The notes beneath the pieces are model-generated. The model was given only the letters and a program-made list of their open reading frames with translations, did no database searches and was not told where the DNA came from. A stretch of 64,000 nucleotides of DNA from Bacteroidales bacterium (lineage in GTDB: Bacteria > Bacteroidota > Bacteroidia > Bacteroidales > WCHB1-69), in contig JAFXTS010000013.1 of the NCBI GenBank assembly GCA_017535665.1, forward strand, positions 1 through 64,000. The letters run 5' to 3'. Within the stretch, counting starts at the first letter, position 1; each line of letters starts with the position of its first letter. Positions 5,003-20,061 of the stretch are shown here, one piece after another. A program made the translations under genes and the position numbers.

Positions 5003-6481
5003 ATGAAACGCCGACTTCTCCCCTACCTCATGATGCTTTTCGGGTGGCTGTTGCTGCCGGGGATGCTGGTGGCGCAGTCGGATGCGCCTTTGCGCGTGGA
5101 GTTTCCCGCCGCCAAAGACCAGCACGACTACAACATGGCCGTTGCCGACACCATGGGGCTGTTCGTCTTCTACGATGCCGGCAGCATTAGCGTGGATACC
5201 AACCGTTGGATTTGCCTGCATTATGACACTAACCTTGTGAAAATCAACACTTCCAACATCAAACTTCCACCGCTGACTGATTTTGTCGCATCGGATTACT
5301 GCGATGGTATTCTCTATCTTCTTTTGCAAAAAAGAATGCCCAAAAAGTCGCCGCCGCGCACTTTCATCGTAGCCATCACACCAGAAAAACGCACTTTTGA
5401 AGTGTCGGAAATTGACGGGATACAGGCCAACGACCTGTCGGGAATTTACGCGACGGACGGACAGTTGCTGTTGCTGGCCACGGACTCCAAATCCGACCTC
5501 GTGTATTTCTACCAGCCATCGTTACACCAGCTGACCACACTCAGCGACATCTTCAGTTACCAAGTGGAATTCTGCACGGCAGACACGGCCGCCCGCCGGT
5601 GGCTCATCGGGCTGCACCAAGTCACCAGCGCACAGGGCGACCTGTTCCTGTACGAATACAGCTGGGCCGACGGGAGCGCGAACCTCACCCGCTTTCCGCA
5701 GCAGTTGCCCGACCACACCAACGTGCTGTGTCAGACCGCCCGCGCCTTCCCTCTCAACGCCGACACCGTTCTGCTGCTCGGCACCTACAACAACCTCTCC
5801 GACCGGCATTCGGTCAACCTGCACTCGGGCGTTTACTCGGTGCTTTTCAGCCATCACCAGTTCGACACCCTTCAGACCTACAACTTCACCAGTCTCAAGA
5901 GCGGCAGCGCCGCCAACACGCCCAATGCCAACCTCAACCTGCAACTGCAACTCGGCGCATCCACTTGTACATCAGAGCAATACAGCATCGTGTCGGAAGT
6001 CTATTATCCCGACTACAGTTACACCTACAACAATCATTACAACGATTACAACTACTACAGTTCGGCACCCACCACCGTCTTCCTCGGCTACCAGTTTGTA
6101 AACGCCTACATCACCACTTTCGACCAGACGGGGCATCTGCTGTGGGACCATTATTTCCCGCTCACCTCCATCAGCAACATGCAACTGGGACCTGTTGTAA
6201 GCCTCTCCTACACCGAAGAGGACGCGCTCATCTATTACGCTCGTAACAATAGGATTTTCAGTACTTTAATCAATGGATATGAGACATTAGAGAAACTCAC
6301 CTCCATGAACATCGAGACCATGAGCACCCGCGATGTGGTGGAATACAACCAAGGCACAGAGATGCAGCGCTGGTATGGCGACAACTTTTTGGTGAGCGGA
6401 TACCAATATCTTCGCAACCGCGACAAAGCCACCAAAGCCAAACGTTTTGTATTCTTTATCAATAAATTAGAATACCGATAA
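5003..6481 (+). CDS. Secreted protein of unknown function
   Basis: This is a 492-residue protein with an N-terminal signal peptide (about 1-25, ending MLVAQ). I recognise no domain. The body alternates beta-strand-like segments with many D/N/S/T residues, which suggests a beta-propeller-like extracellular protein, but no clear repeat could be aligned. An unusual Tyr/Asn-rich stretch (about residues 333-353, near 6000-6062) contains ten Tyr. It starts 18 bp after sufD and is followed after 3 bp by the LRR gene, so these two secreted proteins are probably co-translated. The C-terminus has no obvious sorting domain. Confidence 0.7.
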   Translation: MKRRLLPYLMMLFGWLLLPGMLVAQSDAPLRVEFPAAKDQHDYNMAVADTMGLFVFYDAGSISVDTNRWICLHYDTNLVKINTSNIKLPPLTDFVASDYCDGILYLLLQKRMPKKSPPRTFIVAITPEKRTFEVSEIDGIQANDLSGIYATDGQLLLLATDSKSDLVYFYQPSLHQLTTLSDIFSYQVEFCTADTAARRWLIGLHQVTSAQGDLFLYEYSWADGSANLTRFPQQLPDHTNVLCQTARAFPLNADTVLLLGTYNNLSDRHSVNLHSGVYSVLFSHHQFDTLQTYNFTSLKSGSAANTPNANLNLQLQLGASTCTSEQYSIVSEVYYPDYSYTYNNHYNDYNYYSSAPTTVFLGYQFVNAYITTFDQTGHLLWDHYFPLTSISNMQLGPVVSLSYTEEDALIYYARNNRIFSTLINGYETLEKLTSMNIETMSTRDVVEYNQGTEMQRWYGDNFLVSGYQYLRNRDKATKAKRFVFFINKLEYR

Positions 6482-6484
6482 ACC

Positions 6485-7099
6485 ATGCTGCGCCACACCA
6501 TTCTTCCGATTCTTTTACTGATATTTTGCACCACGGTGGCGCAAGGTCAGTTGTTGAGCGATGCGGAGTTGAAGAAGAAACCTGTGTTCACCTCGATTGA
6601 AGAGGCTGCAAAATCGCCAGAGGAGGTTTACCGGATGAAACTGAAAATCAAGGCCGACTCTTTGCCCGACGAGTTGTTCCAGTTCACCAATTTGCAGGAG
6701 TTGGTGGTGGCGAGATGCAAGCTGAGCACCCTCAACACCCGGATTGGCGAACTCACGCAGTTGCAGCGGTTGGATGTGTCGGCCAACCACTTGGTGGCGT
6801 TGCCGGAAAGTCTGTGTCAGCTGAGAAACCTCAAAGAGCTGATTATCAACCGCAACATCATCGCCGCGCTGCCGGATGGCATCGGCATGATGGAGAGTTT
6901 GGAATACATTGATGCTTGGAGCAACCCGCTGTATGTGTTGCCCGAAAGCATTGCCGCCCTGCGCGGTGTGCTGAAGGAAATAGACCTCCACCAGGTGGAA
7001 CTGAGGGATGAAGAGTTAGAGGCAATGGAGAAACTGTTGCCCGAGACCAAGATCGGGTACACCTCCACCTGCGACTGTCACGGCACGCGCGACAAGTAG
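6485..7099 (+). CDS. Secreted leucine-rich-repeat protein
   Basis: This 204-residue protein begins with a signal peptide (about 1-21). Five or so leucine-rich repeats of the bacterial 23-residue type lie at residues 60-165, for example LPDELFQFTNLQELVV, IGELTQLQRLDVSANHLVALP and LCQLRNLKELIINRNIIAALP. The C-terminus ends with a Cys-containing STCDCHG segment. LRRs usually bind proteins or peptides; no enzymatic domain is present. It is 3 bp downstream of the unknown secreted protein. Its stop codon directly abuts the stop codon of convergent ftsY with no base between. Confidence 0.85.
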   Translation: MLRHTILPILLLIFCTTVAQGQLLSDAELKKKPVFTSIEEAAKSPEEVYRMKLKIKADSLPDELFQFTNLQELVVARCKLSTLNTRIGELTQLQRLDVSANHLVALPESLCQLRNLKELIINRNIIAALPDGIGMMESLEYIDAWSNPLYVLPESIAALRGVLKEIDLHQVELRDEELEAMEKLLPETKIGYTSTCDCHGTRDK

Positions 7100-8059
7100 T
7101 TAGGCTTCTGGGAAGAAGGAGTCCACGAACTCGCTGCGGTTGAAGACTTGCAGCTGGTCGATTTTTTCGCCCACCCCGATATACTTGACCGGAATCTTGA
7201 ACTGATGGGAGATGCCGATGACGACACCACCCTTGGCGGTTCCGTCGAGTTTGGTGATGGCGAGGGCGTTGACCTCGGTGGCAGCGGTGAACTGCTTGGC
7301 CTGTTCAATCGCATTCTGGCCGGTAGAGCCGTCGAGCACGAGCAGCACCTCGTCGGGGGTGTCGGGCAGCAGTTTGCCGATCACATTTTTGATCTTGGAG
7401 AGCTCGCGCATCAGGTTAGACTTGTTGTGGAGGCGGCCTGCGGTGTCGATGATGACGACATCGCACTTTTTGGCGATGGCCGACTTGACAGTGTCGTAGG
7501 CCACGGCGGCGGGATCGGCGCCCATAGGCTGTACCACAATAGGCACGCCGGCGCGTTCGGCCCACACCTCAAGCTGATCAACGGCGGCGGCACGGAAAGT
7601 GTCGGCAGCACCGAGCATGACCGAATAGCCCTTATTCTTGAACTGGTAGGCCAACTTGCCGATGGTGGTGGTTTTGCCGGCGCCGTTCACTCCGACAACC
7701 ATGATGACATACGGACGGCCCAGGTTGGCCGGGATGGAAAAGTCGGTCTGGTCCTCCTGATTGTTCTCCATGAGCAAAGCAGCAATCTCCTCACGCAGAA
7801 TCATTTGCAACTGACCTGTTCCCAGATACTTGTCGCGAGACACGCGAGATTCAATCCGCTCAATGATGGTCAGCGTGGTTTCCACACCCACATCCGAAGT
7901 CACCAAAACCTCCTCCAGATTGTCCAGAACCTCATCATCAACCTTCGACTTGCCCACGACCGTTTTGGCCAATTTGGCGAAAAAACTCTCCTTCGACTTT
8001 TCAAGTCCTTTATTCAGTTCTTCTTTCTTTTCTTTAGAAAAAATAGAGAAAAATCCCAT
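7100..8059 (-). CDS. ftsY: Signal recognition particle receptor FtsY
   Basis: FtsY is the GTPase receptor that docks the SRP-ribosome complex at the inner membrane. The start at 8059 (MGFFSIFSKEKKEELNKGL) gives 319 residues. A longer reading from 8125 would pass through the promoter and is not credible. The NG domain is complete: GVNGAGKTTTIGKLA (P-loop), DTFRAAAVDQLEVW, DTAGRLHNKSNLM and TKLDGTAKGG. The acidic A domain is short, as is common in Bacteroidetes. A strong promoter lies 24 bp upstream. The 3' end meets the LRR gene tail to tail with zero spacing. Confidence 0.95.
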   Translation of the reverse strand: MGFFSIFSKEKKEELNKGLEKSKESFFAKLAKTVVGKSKVDDEVLDNLEEVLVTSDVGVETTLTIIERIESRVSRDKYLGTGQLQMILREEIAALLMENNQEDQTDFSIPANLGRPYVIMVVGVNGAGKTTTIGKLAYQFKNKGYSVMLGAADTFRAAAVDQLEVWAERAGVPIVVQPMGADPAAVAYDTVKSAIAKKCDVVIIDTAGRLHNKSNLMRELSKIKNVIGKLLPDTPDEVLLVLDGSTGQNAIEQAKQFTAATEVNALAITKLDGTAKGGVVIGISHQFKIPVKYIGVGEKIDQLQVFNRSEFVDSFFPEA

Positions 8060-9741: not shown

Positions 9742-9778
9742 GGAGAATGGCGCCGACAAAGCCCATTCTCCTTTTTTT
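9742..9778 (+). terminator. Rho-independent terminator after buk
   Basis: A 9-bp stem (GGAGAATGG at 9742-9750, CCATTCTCC at 9763-9771) with a 12-nt loop is followed by seven T. It ends the buk transcript. It also shows that the apparent start of the next gene at 9747 lies inside the terminator. Confidence 0.85.
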
Positions 9779-9803
9779 AACAGTACTAAAGATTCTAACT
9801 GCT

Positions 9804-12791
9804 ATGCTCACTACTGCTCACAATAAATTAACCGAAACAAAACAACAGAAAGCGGCCCGCCAATTCAGTGATGAATGGAGGGTTCGAGGTGATGAGAAAA
9901 GCGAAACACAATCATTCTGGTTGAGTTTGCTCTCTTCAGTTTATGGTATTTCAAATCCTCAGAAATTTATTGAATTTGAAAAACGTGTGCAATTGTCTCA
10001 CGTCAGCTTCATTGATGCCTATATTTCTTCTACCAAAGTCCTTATAGAGCAAAAAAGTTCCGACATTGACTTACATAAGCCTTACAAGCAAAGTGATGGT
10101 TCGATGCTCACACCATTCCAGCAAGCAAAGCGTTATGCCAACGAAATGCCATATTCTATGCGTCCTCGGTGGGTAGTGGTATGCAATTTCCGTTCGTTTC
10201 TTATATATGATATGGAACAGCCACACGGGGAGCCGCAGGAGATGCTCTTGGAAAATCTAGAAAAAGAACACTATCGTTTGCAATTTATTGTTGATGAGAA
10301 TAATGAGCGCCTCAAACGCGAATTGGAAGTGTCTGTCAAGGCGGGCGAATTAGTAGGAGTTATTTACGACAAACTACTTCAGCAGTATATTGACCCCAAC
10401 GATACTGAAACACTACGATCGCTCAACATTTTATGCGTGCGTTTGGTTTTCTGTCTTTATGCCGAAGACGCTTTCCTTTTCGGTTCTAAAACGGCATTCC
10501 ACGACTATCTAGCTCACTATGAGGCGCGTGACATCAGGCGGGCTCTTCTCGATCTGTTTGATGCTCTCGACACACCGCTTGACCAACGCGATCCCTATCT
10601 GGACGATACGCTAAAGGCATTTCCCTATGTCAATGGAGGATTATTCAGCAAAGATGAACGCCTAATCATCCCTCAATTCAGCGAAGAGCTGAAAGAACTG
10701 CTCTTGACTCACGCATCGGATGACTTTGACTGGAGTGATATCAGTCCGACCATTTTTGGCGCAGTTTTTGAAAGCACTCTGAATCCTGATACCAGAAGAA
10801 AAGGCGGGATGCACTATACCTCTATTGAGAACATCCACAAGGTGATTGACCCGTTGTTTTTGGACGATCTGCGGAATGAATTGGAAGCTATCAAACGAGA
10901 AAAAGTGGAGAGAATACAAGACAAGAAAGCTGCGGATTTCCAAGATAAGTTAGCTTCATTGCGTTTCCTTGACCCCGCTTGTGGAAGTGGTAACTTTCTG
11001 ACAGAAACTTTTTTATCGCTTCGAAGATTAGAAAACGAAGCCATCCGCATTCAGACCAAAGGACAAGCAAGACTTGGTTTTGAAGAGACCAATCCTATCA
11101 AAGTGAACATTCACCAATTTTATGGGATTGAAATCAATGACTTTGCTGTCTCCGTGGCCACTACTGCCCTTTGGATTGCCGAAAACCAAATGCTGAAAGA
11201 AACGGAAAACATTGTGGATTTCGACCTTGACATGTTGCCGCTGAAATCATATCATAACATAACGGAAGGGAATGCCTTACGGATGGATTGGAATACTTTT
11301 ATAAAAGAAGATGATGCAAAGTATTTGTTTGCCGAAAAGCTCAATATTTACAAGGTAAGTGAAGATTTCAAAGACTGTATCGCCAGTGAGACTTTATCTA
11401 CTTATCAGACGCATTACAAAGAACTGAATGTTATTACAAAAGAGGTAGAAGAAAAAAAACTCCCTGATACACAGAACCATAAATCTATCATATTTGATTA
11501 CATCATGGGCAATCCGCCGTTTGTTGGAGCAAGGTGGATGAGTAAGGAGCAAAAAGAGGATGTTATTTATACTTTTGGTAAAAGGTGGCATGGGGTAGGT
11601 GATTTGGATTATGTTTGTTGTTGGTACAAAAAAGCAAGCGATTTACTAAGAAACTGCGATAAAACGAAAGCCGCATTTGTCAGCACCAATAGTATTACGC
11701 AGGGTGGCGCTGTGGCGAACCTATGGAAACCATTGTTTCAGACACATCAAGTGAAGTTTGATTTCGCCTATCGCACATTCCGATGGGATAGCGAATCGGA
11801 ACAAAAAGCCCACGTACATTGCGTAATTGTCGGTTTTTCAAACAATAGATCCGCAAATAATCAAAGAATCATTTTTGATGAGAACGGCAGCAAACATTTA
11901 GCGAGCAACATCAACGGATATCTATTGGACGCACCCAACATTTTTATCGAAAAAAAATCTAAGCCCCTATGTGATGTGCCACAAATTTGTCTTGGTGGGC
12001 AACCTATTGACGATGGCAATTTCATTCTGACAACTGAAGAGAAAGAGGAATACATCAAAAAAGAGCCGCAAGGGGAGAAATTTCTACGACCCTTTATGAT
12101 GGGGAAAGACTTCATCGAACGTACCCCTCGATGGTGTTTTTGGCTTATGGGAGCAAATCCTTCTGAACTCCGCAAATGTCATGAAATTATGCACCGAGTA
12201 GCAAATGTCAGGAGTTTTCGTCTTGAGAGCGATCGAACAAGCACCCTCCGCGCAGCTGAAATGCCCACAGTTTTTGGTGCCCCGTTTGTGGCTGAAAGCG
12301 ATTATATTGCTATCCCAAAAGTTTCTTCTGAACAACGGCGGTATATTCCTATGGACTATCTTTCCAAAGAGATCATTCCCGGAGACAAACTCTTCGTAAT
12401 GCAAAATGCAAGTCTTTATCACTTTGGAGTACTTACGAGTTGTGTACACATGGCATGGACAAGGGCTGTTTGCGGAAGACTGAAAAGCGACTATAGTTAT
12501 TCGAATACTATTGTCTATAACAACTTCCCTTGGCCAGACGCCACAGAATCTCAACAGCAAAAAATTGAACAGACTGCCCAAGCCATCTTTGATGTCCGCG
12601 CAAAATTCCCCGACTGCTCATTGGCAGATCTGTACGATGAAATCAGTATGCCGCCGGAACTTCGCAAAGCTCATGAAGCCAATGATAAGGCCGTAATGCA
12701 AGCCTTCGGATTTCCTACCAAAATGTCGGAAAGCGAAATCGTAGCGGAACTATTCAAAATGTATATCATTCTTTCAAGCCAAACTCAATAA
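9804..12791 (+). CDS. MmeI-like type IIG/IIL restriction-modification enzyme (nuclease-methyltransferase fusion)
   Basis: This 995-residue single polypeptide combines DNA cleavage, N6-adenine methylation and target recognition. The N-terminal PD-(D/E)xK nuclease shows Asp71, then ten residues, then Glu82-Gln-Lys84, the MmeI-family pattern. A helical linker follows. The methyltransferase has motif I FLDPACGSGNF (388-398) and motif IV NPPF (570-573). The C-terminal third should hold the recognition domain. The ATG at 9804 is chosen because the upstream one is inside the buk terminator. The gene is AT-richer than its neighbours and ends 1 bp before nadK, which suggests horizontal insertion. No separate specificity or protection gene is nearby, as expected for this class. 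Confidence 0.85.
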   Translation: MLTTAHNKLTETKQQKAARQFSDEWRVRGDEKSETQSFWLSLLSSVYGISNPQKFIEFEKRVQLSHVSFIDAYISSTKVLIEQKSSDIDLHKPYKQSDGSMLTPFQQAKRYANEMPYSMRPRWVVVCNFRSFLIYDMEQPHGEPQEMLLENLEKEHYRLQFIVDENNERLKRELEVSVKAGELVGVIYDKLLQQYIDPNDTETLRSLNILCVRLVFCLYAEDAFLFGSKTAFHDYLAHYEARDIRRALLDLFDALDTPLDQRDPYLDDTLKAFPYVNGGLFSKDERLIIPQFSEELKELLLTHASDDFDWSDISPTIFGAVFESTLNPDTRRKGGMHYTSIENIHKVIDPLFLDDLRNELEAIKREKVERIQDKKAADFQDKLASLRFLDPACGSGNFLTETFLSLRRLENEAIRIQTKGQARLGFEETNPIKVNIHQFYGIEINDFAVSVATTALWIAENQMLKETENIVDFDLDMLPLKSYHNITEGNALRMDWNTFIKEDDAKYLFAEKLNIYKVSEDFKDCIASETLSTYQTHYKELNVITKEVEEKKLPDTQNHKSIIFDYIMGNPPFVGARWMSKEQKEDVIYTFGKRWHGVGDLDYVCCWYKKASDLLRNCDKTKAAFVSTNSITQGGAVANLWKPLFQTHQVKFDFAYRTFRWDSESEQKAHVHCVIVGFSNNRSANNQRIIFDENGSKHLASNINGYLLDAPNIFIEKKSKPLCDVPQICLGGQPIDDGNFILTTEEKEEYIKKEPQGEKFLRPFMMGKDFIERTPRWCFWLMGANPSELRKCHEIMHRVANVRSFRLESDRTSTLRAAEMPTVFGAPFVAESDYIAIPKVSSEQRRYIPMDYLSKEIIPGDKLFVMQNASLYHFGVLTSCVHMAWTRAVCGRLKSDYSYSNTIVYNNFPWPDATESQQQKIEQTAQAIFDVRAKFPDCSLADLYDEISMPPELRKAHEANDKAVMQAFGFPTKMSESEIVAELFKMYIILSSQTQ

Positions 12792-14212: not shown

Positions 14213-14255
14213 TCGAAATTTCGTTTCTGCCTGTCGGGAGAAACAAAATTTTCAC

Positions 14256-14263
14256 TATTTTTG
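14256..14263 (+). promoter_or_regulatory. -7 box in front of the putative structured RNA
   Basis: TATTTTTG, followed by CACCC, matches the Bacteroidetes -7 motif. No convincing -33 TTTG is found at 19-21 bp. Transcription from here would start near 14270, just before the folded region. It is the only promoter-like site seen before the gene at 14593. Confidence 0.45.
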
Positions 14264-14269
14264 CACCCT

Positions 14270-14528
14270 CATTTCCGTACTCTCATCACTTTGTTTGCTA
14301 CCAGCACTAATGCCCGTAGAATAAGGAATCCGGCGGGTAGTAGGTTCTTATTATTTGTACAATCAAAGCGTTAGCTTTATCTCATTACTGTAAATCTGGA
14401 AAATTTGCAAAATAGGATGCGAGATAGAGGTTAATGCTTATGCGTTCAGCGTAAGCTTAATTTTACAGTTGCATCCTTGGCATTCCAGAGCCGACAGTAT
14501 GACTTAAAGTTGAGTTTACGCTTTTTTT
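14270..14528 (+). ncRNA. Putative structured RNA or leader with pseudoknot
   Basis: The 380-bp gap 14213-14592 holds no ORF but several exact complementary segments. They are: hairpin AAAGC/GCTTT (14365-14378); ACTGTAAA (14387-14394) with TTTACAGT (14462-14469); CTGGAA (14396-14401) with TTCCAG (14483-14488); AGGATGC (14414-14420) with GCATCCT (14471-14477); and hairpin GCTTATGC/GCGTAAGC (14436-14456), extended by TTAA/TTAA across a one-base bulge. The ACTGTAAA pairing crosses CTGGAA/TTCCAG, so it would be a pseudoknot. Alternative pairings exist: TATCTC 14378 with GAGATA 14421, and AGCGTAA 14448-14454 with TTACGCT 14516-14522 just before seven T. This looks like a stand-alone RNA or a terminator-type switch for the next genes. 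I do not recognise the class. Confidence 0.5.
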
Positions 14529-14592
14529 GTGCCTTGCAAGACTGGAAAACCAAACACTAAACAACAATATTAATTAAAAACAAAACAAAACA

Positions 14593-15168
14593 ATGAAAAA
14601 AGTAATGATTTTGAGTTCCATGCTGTTTCTTGGCATGATGATGGTTAACAACGCAATGGCTCAGACCGTTGATGAATTAAGAAAACAACGCGAACGCAAC
14701 AGAGTGGAGCGCAGTCTCAAACAAGAATGTGTGGATGATGACCAATATATGGCAGAAATTGGATACGCAACGAGTGGAGACAGAGACCATGCGGAAGCGG
14801 ATGCTCTCATCAATTGTCAACGAAAACTCAAATTGCGTCTTGAACAAACCGTGCAAGGCGTAGTGGAAGATCTTTCTGCAAAACAGGAACTTGTATCACA
14901 AGATGCCTATGATGCTATTACCCTGCGGAAAATCAACGAAGGTTTTCAGTCTGTCATCAATAAAACCATCGGACATACTATTAAGTGTTATTCCGATTCT
15001 TGGAAAAATGAAAAAGGCGGATGGGATGCAGAATATAATGCTAAAATTTCGATAGAAGAATTCGTTCGTGAAACAAAAGCAGCCATCAATGAAGATGCTG
15101 TTTTACGAGCAAATATACAGATGGATAGCTTTGAAAATACATTTCGGGAGCATCTGAAAAATGAATAA
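14593..15168 (+). CDS. Secreted LPP20-like protein of unknown function
   Basis: This 191-residue protein has a signal peptide (1-23, ending AMAQ). The mature part has a module IGYATSGDRDHAEADALINC (about 56-75), which matches in layout the GVGxTEKxAxxxA module of the genes at 15184 and 18928 and the LPP20 family. The rest is predicted helical with one Trp-rich turn. It is the first gene after the putative structured RNA and has no promoter of its own, so the RNA region is likely its leader. The next gene starts 15 bp downstream. Function is unknown; an envelope location is inferred. Confidence 0.65.
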   Translation: MKKVMILSSMLFLGMMMVNNAMAQTVDELRKQRERNRVERSLKQECVDDDQYMAEIGYATSGDRDHAEADALINCQRKLKLRLEQTVQGVVEDLSAKQELVSQDAYDAITLRKINEGFQSVINKTIGHTIKCYSDSWKNEKGGWDAEYNAKISIEEFVRETKAAINEDAVLRANIQMDSFENTFREHLKNE

Positions 15169-15183
15169 AATTCGAAAAAAATC

Positions 15184-16014
15184 ATGAAGAAAATTTTATT
15201 TCTTGTTATTATCGTACTGCTGTCTGTTTCGGCTTTTGCCCAGAACAGGCAGCAGATACGCCCCGATTGGCTGCTGAAAAAGCCAGAAGCGGGCAATGAC
15301 ACCTACGAATATGTTATTGAACACGGAGTGGGACTGACTGAAAAGGACGCCCTTGACGAAGCCATCAATCACATCCATCAGTATTATATCCATCGTCTCG
15401 GACAAAAGATAGAGTCCTCGCAGGAAGGGGTGACTGCACAGACTGAAACTTATGCCATCCCGTTTAAAAAAGTCTGCGAATACACCGAGAAAGAGAAGGA
15501 TGGAACTTTTACGGTATATGTCTTATGCCAAGTGGCCGTGCGTGGCAATATCACACCGGTTTTTGATGAGTACTATTCCTGCAACAGTATCGGAGAATAC
15601 AAGAATTTCATGCACAAGAAGAATGTTTCTGCCATCGTGGCTTCTATCTTTATGCCAGGGGCTGGGCAGATGGTGAAGCGACATTATGGTTCAGGTGTTC
15701 TCACTCTTTTAGGCGAAGTAGTGTTTGTGGGTGGCGCAGTGGGTTCCTATTTTTATGCGCAGAATCAACTTTCCATTATGCGCAACTATGATGTCTCTTT
15801 GACAGATTTCAATGCAGCAAAAAAAAACTATGGCATTTGCCGCATCGTCAACATTGCTTGTCTATCCGCTGCAGGTGCTTTGTATGTATATAGCCTGATC
15901 CGGACAGGAACAATGAAATACAAGTTCAAGAACGACCACCTTTCGTTTGCTCCAGCTTTCATTCCTACGGAACAGGGTATGGCTTCGGGAGCATGTCTGA
16001 CCTTTAAATTTTGA
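15184..16014 (+). CDS. Envelope protein with LPP20-like N-terminus and DUF5683-like membrane part
   Basis: This is a 276-residue protein. The signal peptide (1-19) is followed by an LPP20-like module: [10 protein letters not shown], then [21 protein letters not shown] (about 24-65). The middle contains [24 protein letters not shown], which resembles the PGxGQ motif of DUF5683, and a hydrophobic helix after it; a second helix lies near residue 235. The N-terminal module is clearly related to that of the gene at 18928 (RPNW, TYEYYVSKGVGNTEKEA). It sits 15 bp after the previous gene and 4 bp before the next, so these form an operon. Function unknown. Confidence 0.7.
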
Positions 16015-16018
16015 AAAA

Positions 16019-17923
16019 ATGAAAAGAATTTGTGTTATTTGCATTGTTGCAAGCTTTATGTTGACTTTGATTGTCGCTTGTGTAAAAGATCTGGGGAAAG
16101 AGGGCATCTATACTGAAACGGAAATCGTAGGCACGGTGGTAGAAAAAAGCGCCAATTCTCCGTTGCAAAACATCAAAGTGCAGGTGACGGACGGCAACCG
16201 TATCCATGCCTCTGCTACAACAGGCAGTGATGGGACTTTTCAAATGAAAGTAAATTTCAACGAAATTAATGACAATTATTACTTGTTACTTGATGGTTCT
16301 CCAGATTTGCCTTCAAAGCAGGAAATGCTTAAAGGTATGGGGAATGAGTTTTATGATTACAAAATTCTGGTGCTCTACGACAAAACCGACACCAACCTGT
16401 TGCCGCAGGTGCGTACAGGAGAGGCAAGTAATGTCTTGGGACATACGGCTACAGTAGGAGGAATGGTCTCTTTCAGTGGCGGAAAGCCATTAACGGGACG
16501 GGGTATCTGCTATGCCACGAAACAGACTCCGACCGTTGACGATTTAGTAAGTACTGCTGGGTCAGAGGTGGGAGCCTTTAACTGCGATCTTACGGGGTTG
16601 CAGACAAACACTACCTATTATTACCGAGCTTATGCCACCAACAGCATCGGCATTTCTTATGGTGAACAGAAAATGTTCACCACGACGGAGGGCCTGCCCA
16701 TGGTGACCACAACTACCCCCACAAATATTTTAGCTACAACAGCCCAAAGTGGGGGGGATGTGACAGACGGCGGTTCTCCTGTAACAGCCCGAGGCATTTG
16801 CTGGAACACTACGGGCAATCCCGATCTCAACGACACGCATACGACCAACGGCACTGGCAACGGCACCTTTACGTCTAATATGACAAGTCTTACACCTGGC
16901 ACTACATACCACGTTCGTGCATACGCCACAAACAGTATGGGGACTAACTATGGTGCGGACAAAACCTTCACGACCTCTAATGGATCACCTATAATTCTTA
17001 TTTCTTCTGCTACGAGCATAACAGCTACGAGTGCTGTTTTGACAGGGAGTGTAACGAATGACCAAGGAATCACCATTGAAGAACGTGGATTCTGCTGGAG
17101 TACAAATCAATATCCGACCATAAATGATAGCCACATCGCTGTGGGAACAGGTACAGGTAGTTTTACTAGTTCTTCTACAAATTTAATACGTAATACTACA
17201 TATTATGCCCGGGCCTATGCGCGTAATAGTTTTGGTTTATATTATAGCCAACAGATTCATTTCACTACTGCAGATGGCCTGCCTACCGTTACCACGCTAA
17301 ATCCAACATTAAATGGGACAACTGTTACTACAGGAGGGAATGTCAGTACAGACGGCGGATATAGCGTAACTGCTCGTGGAGTGTGCTGGAGTACTGCGCC
17401 TTATCCGGATTTGTCAGCATCCCATCACCACACTACAAATGGAAGCGGAACAGGTTCATACTCCTCTACTTTTGAAATGACAGGACAAGGAATTTATTAC
17501 ATTCGTGCTTATGCCACTAATGCCAACGGCACTTCATACGGGGAGCAAGTGACAATAAATCATCCGTATAACAATCTACCAACTTTCACGTACAATGGTT
17601 TTACTTATCGGGTTGCCCCTCCTGCTACGACTACAATGAATTGGAATGATGCAAATGATTATTGTAATAGTCTCACCTTATATGGATATTCCGACTGGAG
17701 ATTGCCAACAGAAACAGAACTCCTAATAATGCGGCAGAATAGTACGATAGGTGGATGGGGATCTGTGAATGAAAATCATTTTTGGTGGAGTTGTATAGAG
17801 TGTGATTATAATAACACCCACGGCCACTTTGCGATTCATATTCCATACACTAGCAGTGGCGGCTCTACGTGTAACAATGACGCAACCCTCCGATATGTCC
17901 GTCCTATTCGTGTAGAAAACTAA
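16019..17923 (+). CDS. Lipoprotein with four Fn3-like repeats and C-terminal DUF1566-type domain
   Basis: This 634-residue lipoprotein has a lipobox ending LIVAC (Cys21). A carboxypeptidase-regulatory-like beta-sandwich (about 33-110) follows. Then come four repeats of about 97 residues (about 125-510), each with a core of the form ARGICW-x-T...P.., then [12 protein letters not shown]. The C-terminus (about 520-634) has the DUF1566/FISUMP pattern [13 protein letters not shown] and [12 protein letters not shown], a C-type-lectin-like fold often found at surface protein ends. The repeats are diverged from each other. It is 4 bp after the preceding gene. A surface adhesin or carbohydrate-binding role is possible but unproven. 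Confidence 0.8.
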
Positions 17924-18003
17924 AAAGGAATTATTTGAGATAAAATGTTTTAGAACCACGCAATGTGGGCAAATTGCAATTTTTAAAGTTGACAGATGTG
18001 TTT

Positions 18004-18627
18004 ATGAAGGATTTTTCAATGGAATTTTGGGGAATTTTGACAAGCATAGTTTGTGTTGCTTTAGGCGCATGCTTGAGCTACATTTTCTTTCGTAAACAGA
18101 ACCAAGACAAGTTAAGTGTGTCGTTATTCACAAAATACCAAAACATTGCTCAAGAATTGGCGGGTATCCTGAAAGACCTACTTCCTTTGTCTTTAACAAT
18201 ACAGAATTACACTACAATTCAATGCAATAGAATTGATAAAGCTTTGGGAGAATTCCTTTACAAGTATTATCTCATCCTTCCTCCACCCGTTCTGGAAGAA
18301 ATTAATTGCTTACATGAATGTTTATTGTGTCGAGGGAAGAATGCTTTTATAATTAAAACAGAGAATGAATTACCTGTATTACAAAAACGGTCAACAGATG
18401 AAGAGATAAAAAGCTTACTTGAAGAAGTCGCTATTGTCACAACGAAAAAAGGTCTATTTAACATTTATAAACAATACAAAAGACTGCCACGTTCAATTTA
18501 TTTGAAATGCCATGCTCGCCATGTGATCAAGGTTTTGAATGATTGTTGGAATCTTTCAGATATCCACGAATGGAAAAATAAGTTACCTATTTTGCCTACA
18601 AAGTCAAAACTACCACAAAACGAATAG
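18004..18627 (+). CDS. Single-pass membrane protein of unknown function
   Basis: The frame runs from 17965, but the ATG at 18004 (MKDFSMEFWGIL) puts a hydrophobic helix (about 6-30) at the N-terminus, giving 207 residues. After the helix the protein is soluble and helix-rich with several Cys (LHECLLCRGK). The DNA is AT-rich compared with the flanking core genes. I recognise no family. It lies between the Fn3 lipoprotein and a gene remnant. A start at 18019 is also possible. Confidence 0.5.
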   Translation: MKDFSMEFWGILTSIVCVALGACLSYIFFRKQNQDKLSVSLFTKYQNIAQELAGILKDLLPLSLTIQNYTTIQCNRIDKALGEFLYKYYLILPPPVLEEINCLHECLLCRGKNAFIIKTENELPVLQKRSTDEEIKSLLEEVAIVTTKKGLFNIYKQYKRLPRSIYLKCHARHVIKVLNDCWNLSDIHEWKNKLPILPTKSKLPQNE

Positions 18628-18628
18628 C

Positions 18629-18912
18629 ATGAAACAACTCATTACCATCATCACCACCTTGCTGCTCTTCGGCTGCCTTCACGCTCAAGTCACCGACTTC
18701 GACGAGTGGAAGAAGGCACAACAAGACAAATACAACAAATACAACAATTTTGTCAACCAACAGCAGTTTGTGGCCTTCTGCGGCAGCATCAATGCGGCAT
18801 ACGCCGAGAGCTTCTTTTTAGGCATAAGTGCTGAGGGTGTGTTTGATGTCTGGAGTTACACTTTGAACCTCCCATAAACCTCAAATTAGGTATTGCATTT
18901 GGAATAAAATAA
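18629..18912 (+). pseudogene. Chimeric remnant: 5' end of a 20094-type gene fused to the 3' end of an 18928-type gene
   Basis: The ATG at 18629 opens a signal peptide and then VTDFDEWKKAQQDK, the same N-terminus as the transglutaminase-like protein at 20094; 50 bp (18680-18729) are identical to 20145-20194. After AYAE the sequence jumps to FFLGISAEGVFDVWSY, which matches the C-terminal barrel end of the protein at 18928 (FFLGISAGASYDVVNY). The frame then breaks and stops at 18877. Shifting frame near 18857 restores FEPPINLKLGIAFGIK to a stop at 18912, matching FAPSIMVKIGVSWGVR of 18928. This is a deletion fusion of two neighbouring paralogues plus a frameshift; the 82-residue product is probably not functional. 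Confidence 0.8.
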
Positions 18913-18927
18913 TATAAAGTCCTTATC

Positions 18928-20061
18928 ATGAAAAAAATCATCTCATTATTATTTATCATATCATTTTCCATCAGTGCGTATGCACAAACCTATATCAGTA
19001 TGCGCCCCAATTGGACATTCAATCCGCCTACGGCTGAAAATTCAACGTACGAATATTATGTAAGCAAAGGGGTGGGCAATACCGAAAAAGAGGCGCGTAC
19101 AGATGCGTTTGTTATCGCAGTAAAAGAAGCCCAGCAACGTGTCGGCGTTGGGGCAAACTCAAGTGAAATTTTTAGTGCTTTTCAAAGCAATCAAGATTTC
19201 AATGTGATAGCCAACTATTATGAAATCCCAATGAAAGAAGTATGTAGCTTTTCTGAGAAAACCCGAGATGGAAGTCAATGGTATTACTATCAGCTTCTGC
19301 AAATAGCCATCAACGGCTCTATCACTCCAGATTTCAGGCAATTTACTGGCGATTGCTACGATTTCAGTAAAGCAAAAGAACTGCGTGAAATCATGAAAGA
19401 AGAGTACAAGGAGAAAATCGAGGAAGACAAGAAGAGGCAAGAGCAGGAAGCCAAAACACAGCGACAGGAAGAAAGAAAAAGCAAACGCCTTGACAATCCG
19501 TATTGTAATGCAGGCAAGCATCGATATATCGCTTGGAATATTGCTGGAGCCAGTTACCCGTGGAGTTTGATAAGCGGAGTAGAATTTCGATATGGAAAAA
19601 TAATTGGTTTTGGCGCATACCTTGATTTGGGAATTGATTTCACAAGGATAAAATATACATATAAACACGGATACGAGAGTGACGGATACGAGTATGACTG
19701 TAGCCTTATCTCGGACGCTACAACCAAAGTATTTTTTCATTATGCTGGAGGACTAAAATTTTATCTCTATAAAGGGGTATTTCTTGATTTTGGCTATGGC
19801 TCAATTAGCAAGTCTTTCGTTGATCTCGGTAAAATAGAAGGATATTATTACTATGATAATAGTCATAAAGAGAAGGCGAAGAATTGGGTTTACCAAGCCC
19901 ACGGAGTGCTTTTCCATGCTGGTTATAATTTCGTCACCAATCTCACTAATGGAGCGGGATTTTTCCTTGGGATAAGTGCAGGAGCATCGTATGACGTTGT
20001 AAATTACGAATTTGCTCCATCAATAATGGTAAAAATAGGTGTTTCATGGGGCGTGAGATAA
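18928..20061 (+). CDS. Envelope protein: LPP20-like module, coiled coil, C-terminal beta-barrel-like part
   Basis: This is a 377-residue protein. Signal peptide 1-20; LPP20-like module with RPNWTFNPPTAENSTYEYYVSKGVGNTEKEA compressed in residues 26-58; a charged coiled coil (about 150-192, KEEYKEKIEEDKKRQEQEAK and onward). From about 200 to the end there are alternating strands rich in Tyr and Gly, ending VKIGVSWGVR, like a small outer-membrane barrel. The N-terminal module is paralogous to that of the 15184 protein. The C-terminal end is repeated in the remnant just upstream. Function unknown; a periplasm-to-outer-membrane role is inferred from layout. Confidence 0.7.
   Translation: MKKIISLLFIISFSISAYAQTYISMRPNWTFNPPTAENSTYEYYVSKGVGNTEKEARTDAFVIAVKEAQQRVGVGANSSEIFSAFQSNQDFNVIANYYEIPMKEVCSFSEKTRDGSQWYYYQLLQIAINGSITPDFRQFTGDCYDFSKAKELREIMKEEYKEKIEEDKKRQEQEAKTQRQEERKSKRLDNPYCNAGKHRYIAWNIAGASYPWSLISGVEFRYGKIIGFGAYLDLGIDFTRIKYTYKHGYESDGYEYDCSLISDATTKVFFHYAGGLKFYLYKGVFLDFGYGSISKSFVDLGKIEGYYYYDNSHKEKAKNWVYQAHGVLFHAGYNFVTNLTNGAGFFLGISAGASYDVVNYEFAPSIMVKIGVSWGVR

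Follow-up and report, generated by a model that had tools for sequence, protein, structure and literature searches.

The question raised by this locus is what occupies positions 14213-14592 of the window (the whole 64,000-nucleotide stretch analysed, from a Bacteroidales bacterium contig), a gap that is bounded by the stop codon of a flavin-reductase gene (14212) and an ATG at 14593 and that contains no gene-like ORF. This stretch folds at -87.4 kcal/mol, compared to -59.1 kcal/mol in shuffles (z = -6.2), and its homologues display very strong covariation, in keeping with the structured RNA that an earlier note on this DNA had proposed. No protein-like change and no constant transposase flanks were seen among the homologues. 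Our study revealed that the core of the gap, at 14358-14532 on the + strand, is a genuine structured RNA that belongs to a large and so far undescribed family.

An undescribed RNA family in the Bacteroidota

The limits of the core were set by a covariance model, R1, which was built from 14 sequences and matched the window element with a score of 133.8 bits and an E-value of 2.4e-22 per genome, the R1 E-values being rough because of a short calibration. A DNA search of this genome with the element returned the element itself as its sole match, so the copies within the genome are not near-identical; R1 identified 13 clear copies there (E ~1e-5 or better). In a second species of the genus the element was 82% identical, at another genomic place and ahead of a VWA-domain gene, with the promoter box kept and the 5' leader altered. 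More distant matches, found by DNA search throughout the order, had the motif AGCGTTAGCTTT...GAAATCTGG in common. Short DNA matches were also inspected and discarded: a 33-nt match lay inside a clpX-like gene (L004) and was due to chance, others (L009, L014-L016, L018 and L021-L024) had no such hairpin, and a Saccharibacteria contig found by pattern scan (L128) was dropped as it gave no model match. The window RNA had no BLAST match among plasmid or phage records.

By R1, the element was carried by 87 of the 104 genomes of its taxonomic family, with per-genome copies reaching at least 26, by 161/393 genomes of the order and by 45/345 genomes of a phylum sample, other classes included. In the order search, scoring was confined to six candidates for each genome, which makes the copy numbers at that level lower bounds. 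Bacteroides fragilis harboured 8 copies, B. gallinarum 13, B. ndongoniae 10 and Butyricimonas 9, and further carriers were found in Alistipes, Prevotella, Dysgonomonas, Chryseobacterium, Flavobacterium and Riemerella. Most genomes outside the carrier groups had no copy, which indicates that the model is specific.

No family in Rfam 15 matched the element, in the window or at about 40 further loci, at gathering or relaxed thresholds; these negatives include DUF805, Flavo-1, Bacteroidales-1, 6S, SRP, tmRNA and RNase P, and agree with the earlier note, which had not recognized it as SRP, 6S, tmRNA, RNase P or a common riboswitch. The families of a 2017 survey of 224 motifs are reportedly largely in Rfam. 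No description of the element was found in the literature on Bacteroidota leaders, riboswitches or attenuation, or by searching for its consensus letters.

Several catalogued RNAs are comparable in kind. DUF805 RNA (RF03081) is likewise a cis-regulatory-type RNA of Bacteroidota, but it is a separate, 68-nt family. It occurs beside the element at two loci: in L007 at 1701-1766, between the element and the start codon, and again at 2665-2733 before the next gene, and in L027 at 1270-1338, near the element. Flavo-1 (RF01705), Bacteroidales-1 (RF01693) and other motifs of Weinberg et al. 2010 (PMC2864571) are also computationally identified, multicopy or orphan RNAs of Bacteroidota; the element matched neither Flavo-1 nor Bacteroidales-1 at gathering or relaxed thresholds. 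Fremin and Bhatt 2021 (PMC8040213) list two long palindromic Bacteroidetes RNA candidates, HMP2_4205 and HMP2_4078, one of which was called a terminator near TPR genes and the other of which lies near phage genes. These are set apart from the element by description, as the passages on them in that paper describe no two-state structure, copy number or such gene context; on this comparison by description only, it is possible that they are identical with part of the element family.

Two mutually exclusive folds

Structure was assessed in an alignment (A4) of 99 distinct copies aligned to R1. One fold, state A, is a long rod formed by P1, P2, P3 and P5, with P4 between. P1 is a small 5' hairpin (AAAGC-GUUA-GCUUU, 14365-14378) with 95.7% of cells paired, and its 5' strand has an alternative partner at 14434-14438, the P7 base, with which 93.6% are paired. 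P2 joins 14386-14391 to 14494-14499 (98.1% paired, all six pairs with compensatory changes), and the apical hairpin P5 spans 14436-14456, where 14436-14443 pairs with 14449-14456 (95.9%). P3 forms between 14395-14401 and 14483-14489; in it 99.3% of cells are paired, compensatory changes occur in 7/7 pairs and a single G-U stands among 693 otherwise Watson-Crick complementary cells. Over the 27 countable pairs of state A, 97.3% of cells were paired, compared to 29-47% in slid controls. Compensatory change was counted in 501 cells versus 127 in shuffles, a control that ignores kinship, although compensated variants are nonetheless seen among the copies of this one genome.

An unbiased covariation scan returned P2, P3 and P5 as its top column pairs, together with a pair outside the rod, 204/299; column 204 covaries with both column 128 (P5) and column 299 (P6). 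This second partner belongs to an alternative fold, state B, where the 3' arm of P5 exchanges its rod partner for the segment immediately 5' of a U-tract. The resulting helix, P6 (14448-14458 with 14512-14522, extended inward), was paired in 95.7% of cells, with 52 compensatory cells versus 13 in shuffles, and the state B set as a whole in 94.2%, with 83 versus 21. In the 3' hairpin of state B (14448-14522), P6 carries the cap P9 (RGGY:RCCU; 14478-14481 paired to 14490-14493), and the loop, AUUCCAGA at 14482-14489, is 8 nt long; as the U-tract (14522-14528) follows P6, this hairpin is a candidate terminator. In the 5' hairpin (14366-14439), P7 (14366-14383 with 14421-14439) carries the cap P8 (GAAA:UUUC; 14391-14394 paired to 14404-14407), and the loop, UCUGGAAAA at 14395-14403, has 9 nt. 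P7 is extended at its base by a near-invariant AGCGUU:AAYGCU, 93.6% paired.

P6 and P7 were not built into the alignment, because R1 contained no P6 or P7 pairs. Partner shuffling gave z = -14.3 for P6 and -13.8 to -17.7 for P7, compared to null values (z +0.4 to +2.4) for four control segment pairs. Folded alone, the 3' half formed P6 in 94/99 copies and the 5' half formed the P7 base in 93/99; in the window, the 3' half folded at -30.1 kcal/mol and the 5' half as the P7/P8 hairpin. Among 20 held-out copies from Bacteroides and relatives, outside the alignment, P6 was found in 18 and P7 in 15. P5/P4 and P6 share one strand and are mutually exclusive, and both covary. Covariation across the 99 distinct copies therefore supports two mutually exclusive folds.

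The four pairs of complementary segments singled out in the earlier note are all present in the window, and comparison of the 99 homologues separated them. The pair 14396-14401/14483-14488 is P3, a conserved helix (99% of cells paired). The pair 14448-14454/14516-14522, which precedes seven T, corresponds to P6 and is likewise conserved (95%), and 14378-14383/14421-14426 is part of the conserved P7 (58% by column, alignment-free z = -13.8). The fourth, 14387-14394/14462-14469, is not conserved (49%), and the pseudoknot that it was thought to form with P3 was thus a chance match. The competing helices and the terminator helix of the proposed two-state switch are accordingly the conserved ones, the switching itself being a prediction from them.

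The loops of the two half-hairpins carry the P3 strands, 14395-14401 in the 5' hairpin and 14483-14489 in the 3' hairpin, and are mutually complementary. Their lengths are constant while the rest of the element varies, at 9 nt in 96/99 copies for the 5' hairpin and 8 nt in 97/99 for the 3' hairpin. Being fixed in size and strictly complementary, the loops suggest a kissing contact between the state B hairpins. In the kissing pairs of the ColE1 RNA I/RNA II type there are likewise two hairpins with 7-nt Watson-Crick complementary loops of fixed size, convertible to an extended duplex. In the element, however, both hairpins lie on one transcript rather than on a plasmid antisense pair, the second is a terminator candidate and the kissing is predicted from the loops.

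Several positions that are unpaired in the rod are invariant (GAAA, AAUUU, GG and CC), and invariant nucleotides flanking P3 could form a pocket that stabilizes one fold on sensing a ligand or a protein, as in a riboswitch-like aptamer. The presence of many copies per genome ahead of unrelated exported proteins also recalls second-messenger riboswitches. However, the base pairs of P8 and P9 in the alternative fold account for these invariant nucleotides, which have no partner in the rod, so that a pocket would not be needed, and the 88 downstream proteins analysed have no common pathway. For these two reasons membership of a riboswitch class cannot be claimed, and we regard an aptamer as quite unlikely.

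Gene context and the selected molecule

The element lies in a consistent position relative to genes. Of 108 copies whose flanks were long enough, 103 had a sense ORF downstream, and the median distance between the end of the element and the start codon was 64 nt. Upstream, the Bacteroidota-type -7 promoter box TAnnTTTG occurred 86 times in sense, compared to 35 times in antisense and 16 in shuffles. The box that the earlier note had placed ahead of the element was found on the + strand of the window as TATTTTTG, at 14256-14263. Between element and start codon the box is at chance level family-wide (2 versus 1.8), which agrees with the earlier view that the gene behind it lacks a separate promoter. 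From the position of the -7 box, transcription of the window leader would start near 14269, and the 5' leader would extend from there to 14357. This part is variable in length and sequence, is not conserved and is absent from some copies (113 leaders, with a comparison to L003).

A leader-peptide attenuator was considered and set aside, as very short ORFs were present in 59/113 leaders compared to 36 in shuffles and were not universal. In several copies, moreover, transcription would begin too near P1 for a leader peptide to be encoded, the promoter lying about 20 nt before P1 in some; with this and the weak, non-universal excess of tiny ORFs, such a peptide is unlikely to apply to the family at large. 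A tiny start-stop ORF or motif like ATGACATAA or CCTATGAAATAG recurs about 25-75 nt 5' of P1, for example in L143, L114, L126, L040, L049, L062 and L010. Within the window's family, a second conserved motif stands just past the element in many copies, ahead of the start codon; it reads roughly GUUUGUGAC..GAAAAGCGGAAACGGUU..AACC..UACAAACAU, its two ends are complementary and it has no Rfam match (L087, L088, L089, L090, L067, L069, L076 and L077).

Exported-looking proteins, called by a crude hydrophobicity rule, made up 80/103 of the downstream products compared to 105/284 for the remaining genes at those loci (p = 8e-13). The downstream proteins are nevertheless diverse, with 67 Pfam families over 88 proteins and none dominant. 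They are mostly secreted proteins or lipoproteins and include T9SS-tail and FISUMP proteins, proteins with PEGA, BACON or CsgG domains, LRR proteins, DNA methylases, a resolvase, recombinases and glycosyltransferases; with no common pathway among them, they suggest no signal. The eight copies in Bacteroides fragilis Q1F2 precede genes other than upxY-type antiterminator genes, and so a Bacteroides capsule (upxY) leader was rejected. The envelope gene block of the earlier note fits in part: the genes here encode putative secreted proteins, but at other loci copies also lie ahead of unrelated genes.

The first gene of the putative regulated operon in the window (14593-15168, + strand) encodes a protein of 191 aa that appears to have a signal peptide; it has no Pfam match, and the rest of the genus gave no DNA match to it. 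The operon that the element precedes (14593-20061) encodes several signal-peptide proteins without a Pfam match, two of which (15184-16014 and 18928-20061) are mutually similar and reminiscent of LPP20-type proteins. Elsewhere in the window, a 1014-aa protein (9747-12791) with the DNA methylase motifs DPACGSGNF and NPPF is probably a combined restriction-modification enzyme.

The structure might alternatively act in single-stranded DNA, as an integron attC-like site, a miniature transposon or part of an invertible promoter. The element is multicopy and is not syntenic between two species of one genus, integrases or recombinases are sometimes encoded close to a copy, and in one case the copy lies within the terminal repeats that surround an IS-type transposase. 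However, the copies within a genome are not near-identical, their orientation and spacing to genes are fixed, and most have no adjoining mobile-element gene. Furthermore, G-U greatly exceeds A-C in the helices (336 versus 18 cells), which indicates that the sense-strand RNA is the selected molecule; at loci scoring on both strands, model scores were 28-40 bits in antisense and 131-165 bits in sense. A DNA element is therefore very improbable, and the RNA reading is retained below.

Some copies do accompany mobile DNA. On a Dysgonomonas contig (L116), 1975-bp perfect inverted repeats (1-1975 and 5143-7117) each contain one copy of the element together with an IS1595-like transposase, so that an insertion sequence may carry the element in this case. 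In Butyricimonas (L148), two copies at 1829-1990 and 2384-2551, 394 nt apart, directly follow a tyrosine-recombinase-like gene. Closely similar copies precede a gene for a 73-90-aa protein on a viral contig (L149, 7397-7560) and in several Bacteroides and Phocaeicola genomes (L123, L137, L180, L191 and L196), which suggests a prophage or integrative element carrying the switch.

A probable transcription attenuator

Two exclusive folds, one of them a putative stop signal, placed just ahead of genes make an on/off switch for those genes probable. In our assessment, the element probably forms the 5' leader of the gene that follows and works as a transcription attenuator; that it terminates and regulates, and which state is on, we infer from its sequence and conservation. 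RNA polymerase would start at or near the TATTTTTG box and transcribe the element ahead of the gene. In state B, predicted to be off, the 5' half would fold on itself (P7 with its P8 cap) and leave the 3' half free to form the P6/P9 hairpin abutting the U-tract, at which transcription would stop. In state A, predicted to be on, 14421-14443, made up of the 3' strand of P7 and the 5' arm of P5, would pair with the strand that starts P6 (14449-14470), giving one long rod (P5, P4, P3 and P2) in which the terminator is blocked and the gene is read. The strand 14449-14470 may thus take 14421-14443 as its partner in the rod or 14500-14521 in the terminator, and 14421-14439 can in turn be held by 14366-14383 (P7). 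A kissing contact of the complementary P3 loops would be a likely intermediate between the states.

A strand shared between the P5 5' arm and a segment adjacent to the U-tract is a hallmark of antiterminator/terminator designs, and it is this that points to attenuator logic. Attenuators and riboswitches with such an exchange have the same order of promoter, leader and gene, and the same shared strand that pairs upstream or with the segment adjacent to the U-tract, while a third strand sequesters the antiterminator strand. The element differs from classic attenuators in not requiring a leader peptide and in having no metabolic theme. It differs further in that two full hairpins with complementary loops re-zip into one rod, and in occurring in dozens of copies ahead of unrelated genes.

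Several observations speak against the attenuator. The genes behind the copies have no pathway in common and so hint at no signal. A clear U-tract is present in 101/114 copies and lacking in about 11%, and part of the U-tract pairs with a 5' A-rich segment in the rod as calculated. The calculated mean energies are -63.8 kcal/mol for the rod and -46.7 kcal/mol for the two hairpins (kissing energy excluded), so that the rod is about 17 kcal/mol stabler on average and state A would dominate at equilibrium. Since the energies favour the rod, the choice between folds would be kinetic, made during transcription, or made by a bound factor.

With its own promoter and terminator-like end, the element could instead be an independent small RNA with a constitutive terminator, whose folds serve its own maturation or pairing in trans and past which the genes are reached by leaky read-through. 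The rod would suit a double-strand nuclease such as RNase III. However, a free small RNA need not be tied to gene starts, whereas 103/108 copies are in sense to a nearby gene and no second promoter precedes that gene. We consider this explanation unlikely and continue to prefer the attenuator.

Tentatively, the family may be a phylum-wide, gene-agnostic, portable leader, in which two kissing hairpins versus one rod decide the reading of accessory genes, by co-transcriptional folding alone or by one shared factor; we hold this extension to be possible but doubtful. Under it, a P3 loop pair compensated in each copy would prevent cross-reaction among the dozens of copies in a cell.

If our reading is correct, Bacteroidota from the gut, the rumen and the environment, among them Bacteroides fragilis, Alistipes, Chryseobacterium and Riemerella, share one unrecognized RNA element that occupies the leaders of many genes in each genome. 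Such leaders are left blank in annotation because Rfam has no family for them. Exported and accessory genes would share a control point in the element, which would also be a well-supported natural case of an RNA evolved for two folds and would provide a regulatory part ready for use in engineered commensal Bacteroides. The covariance-model approach makes it directly testable in existing transcriptomes.
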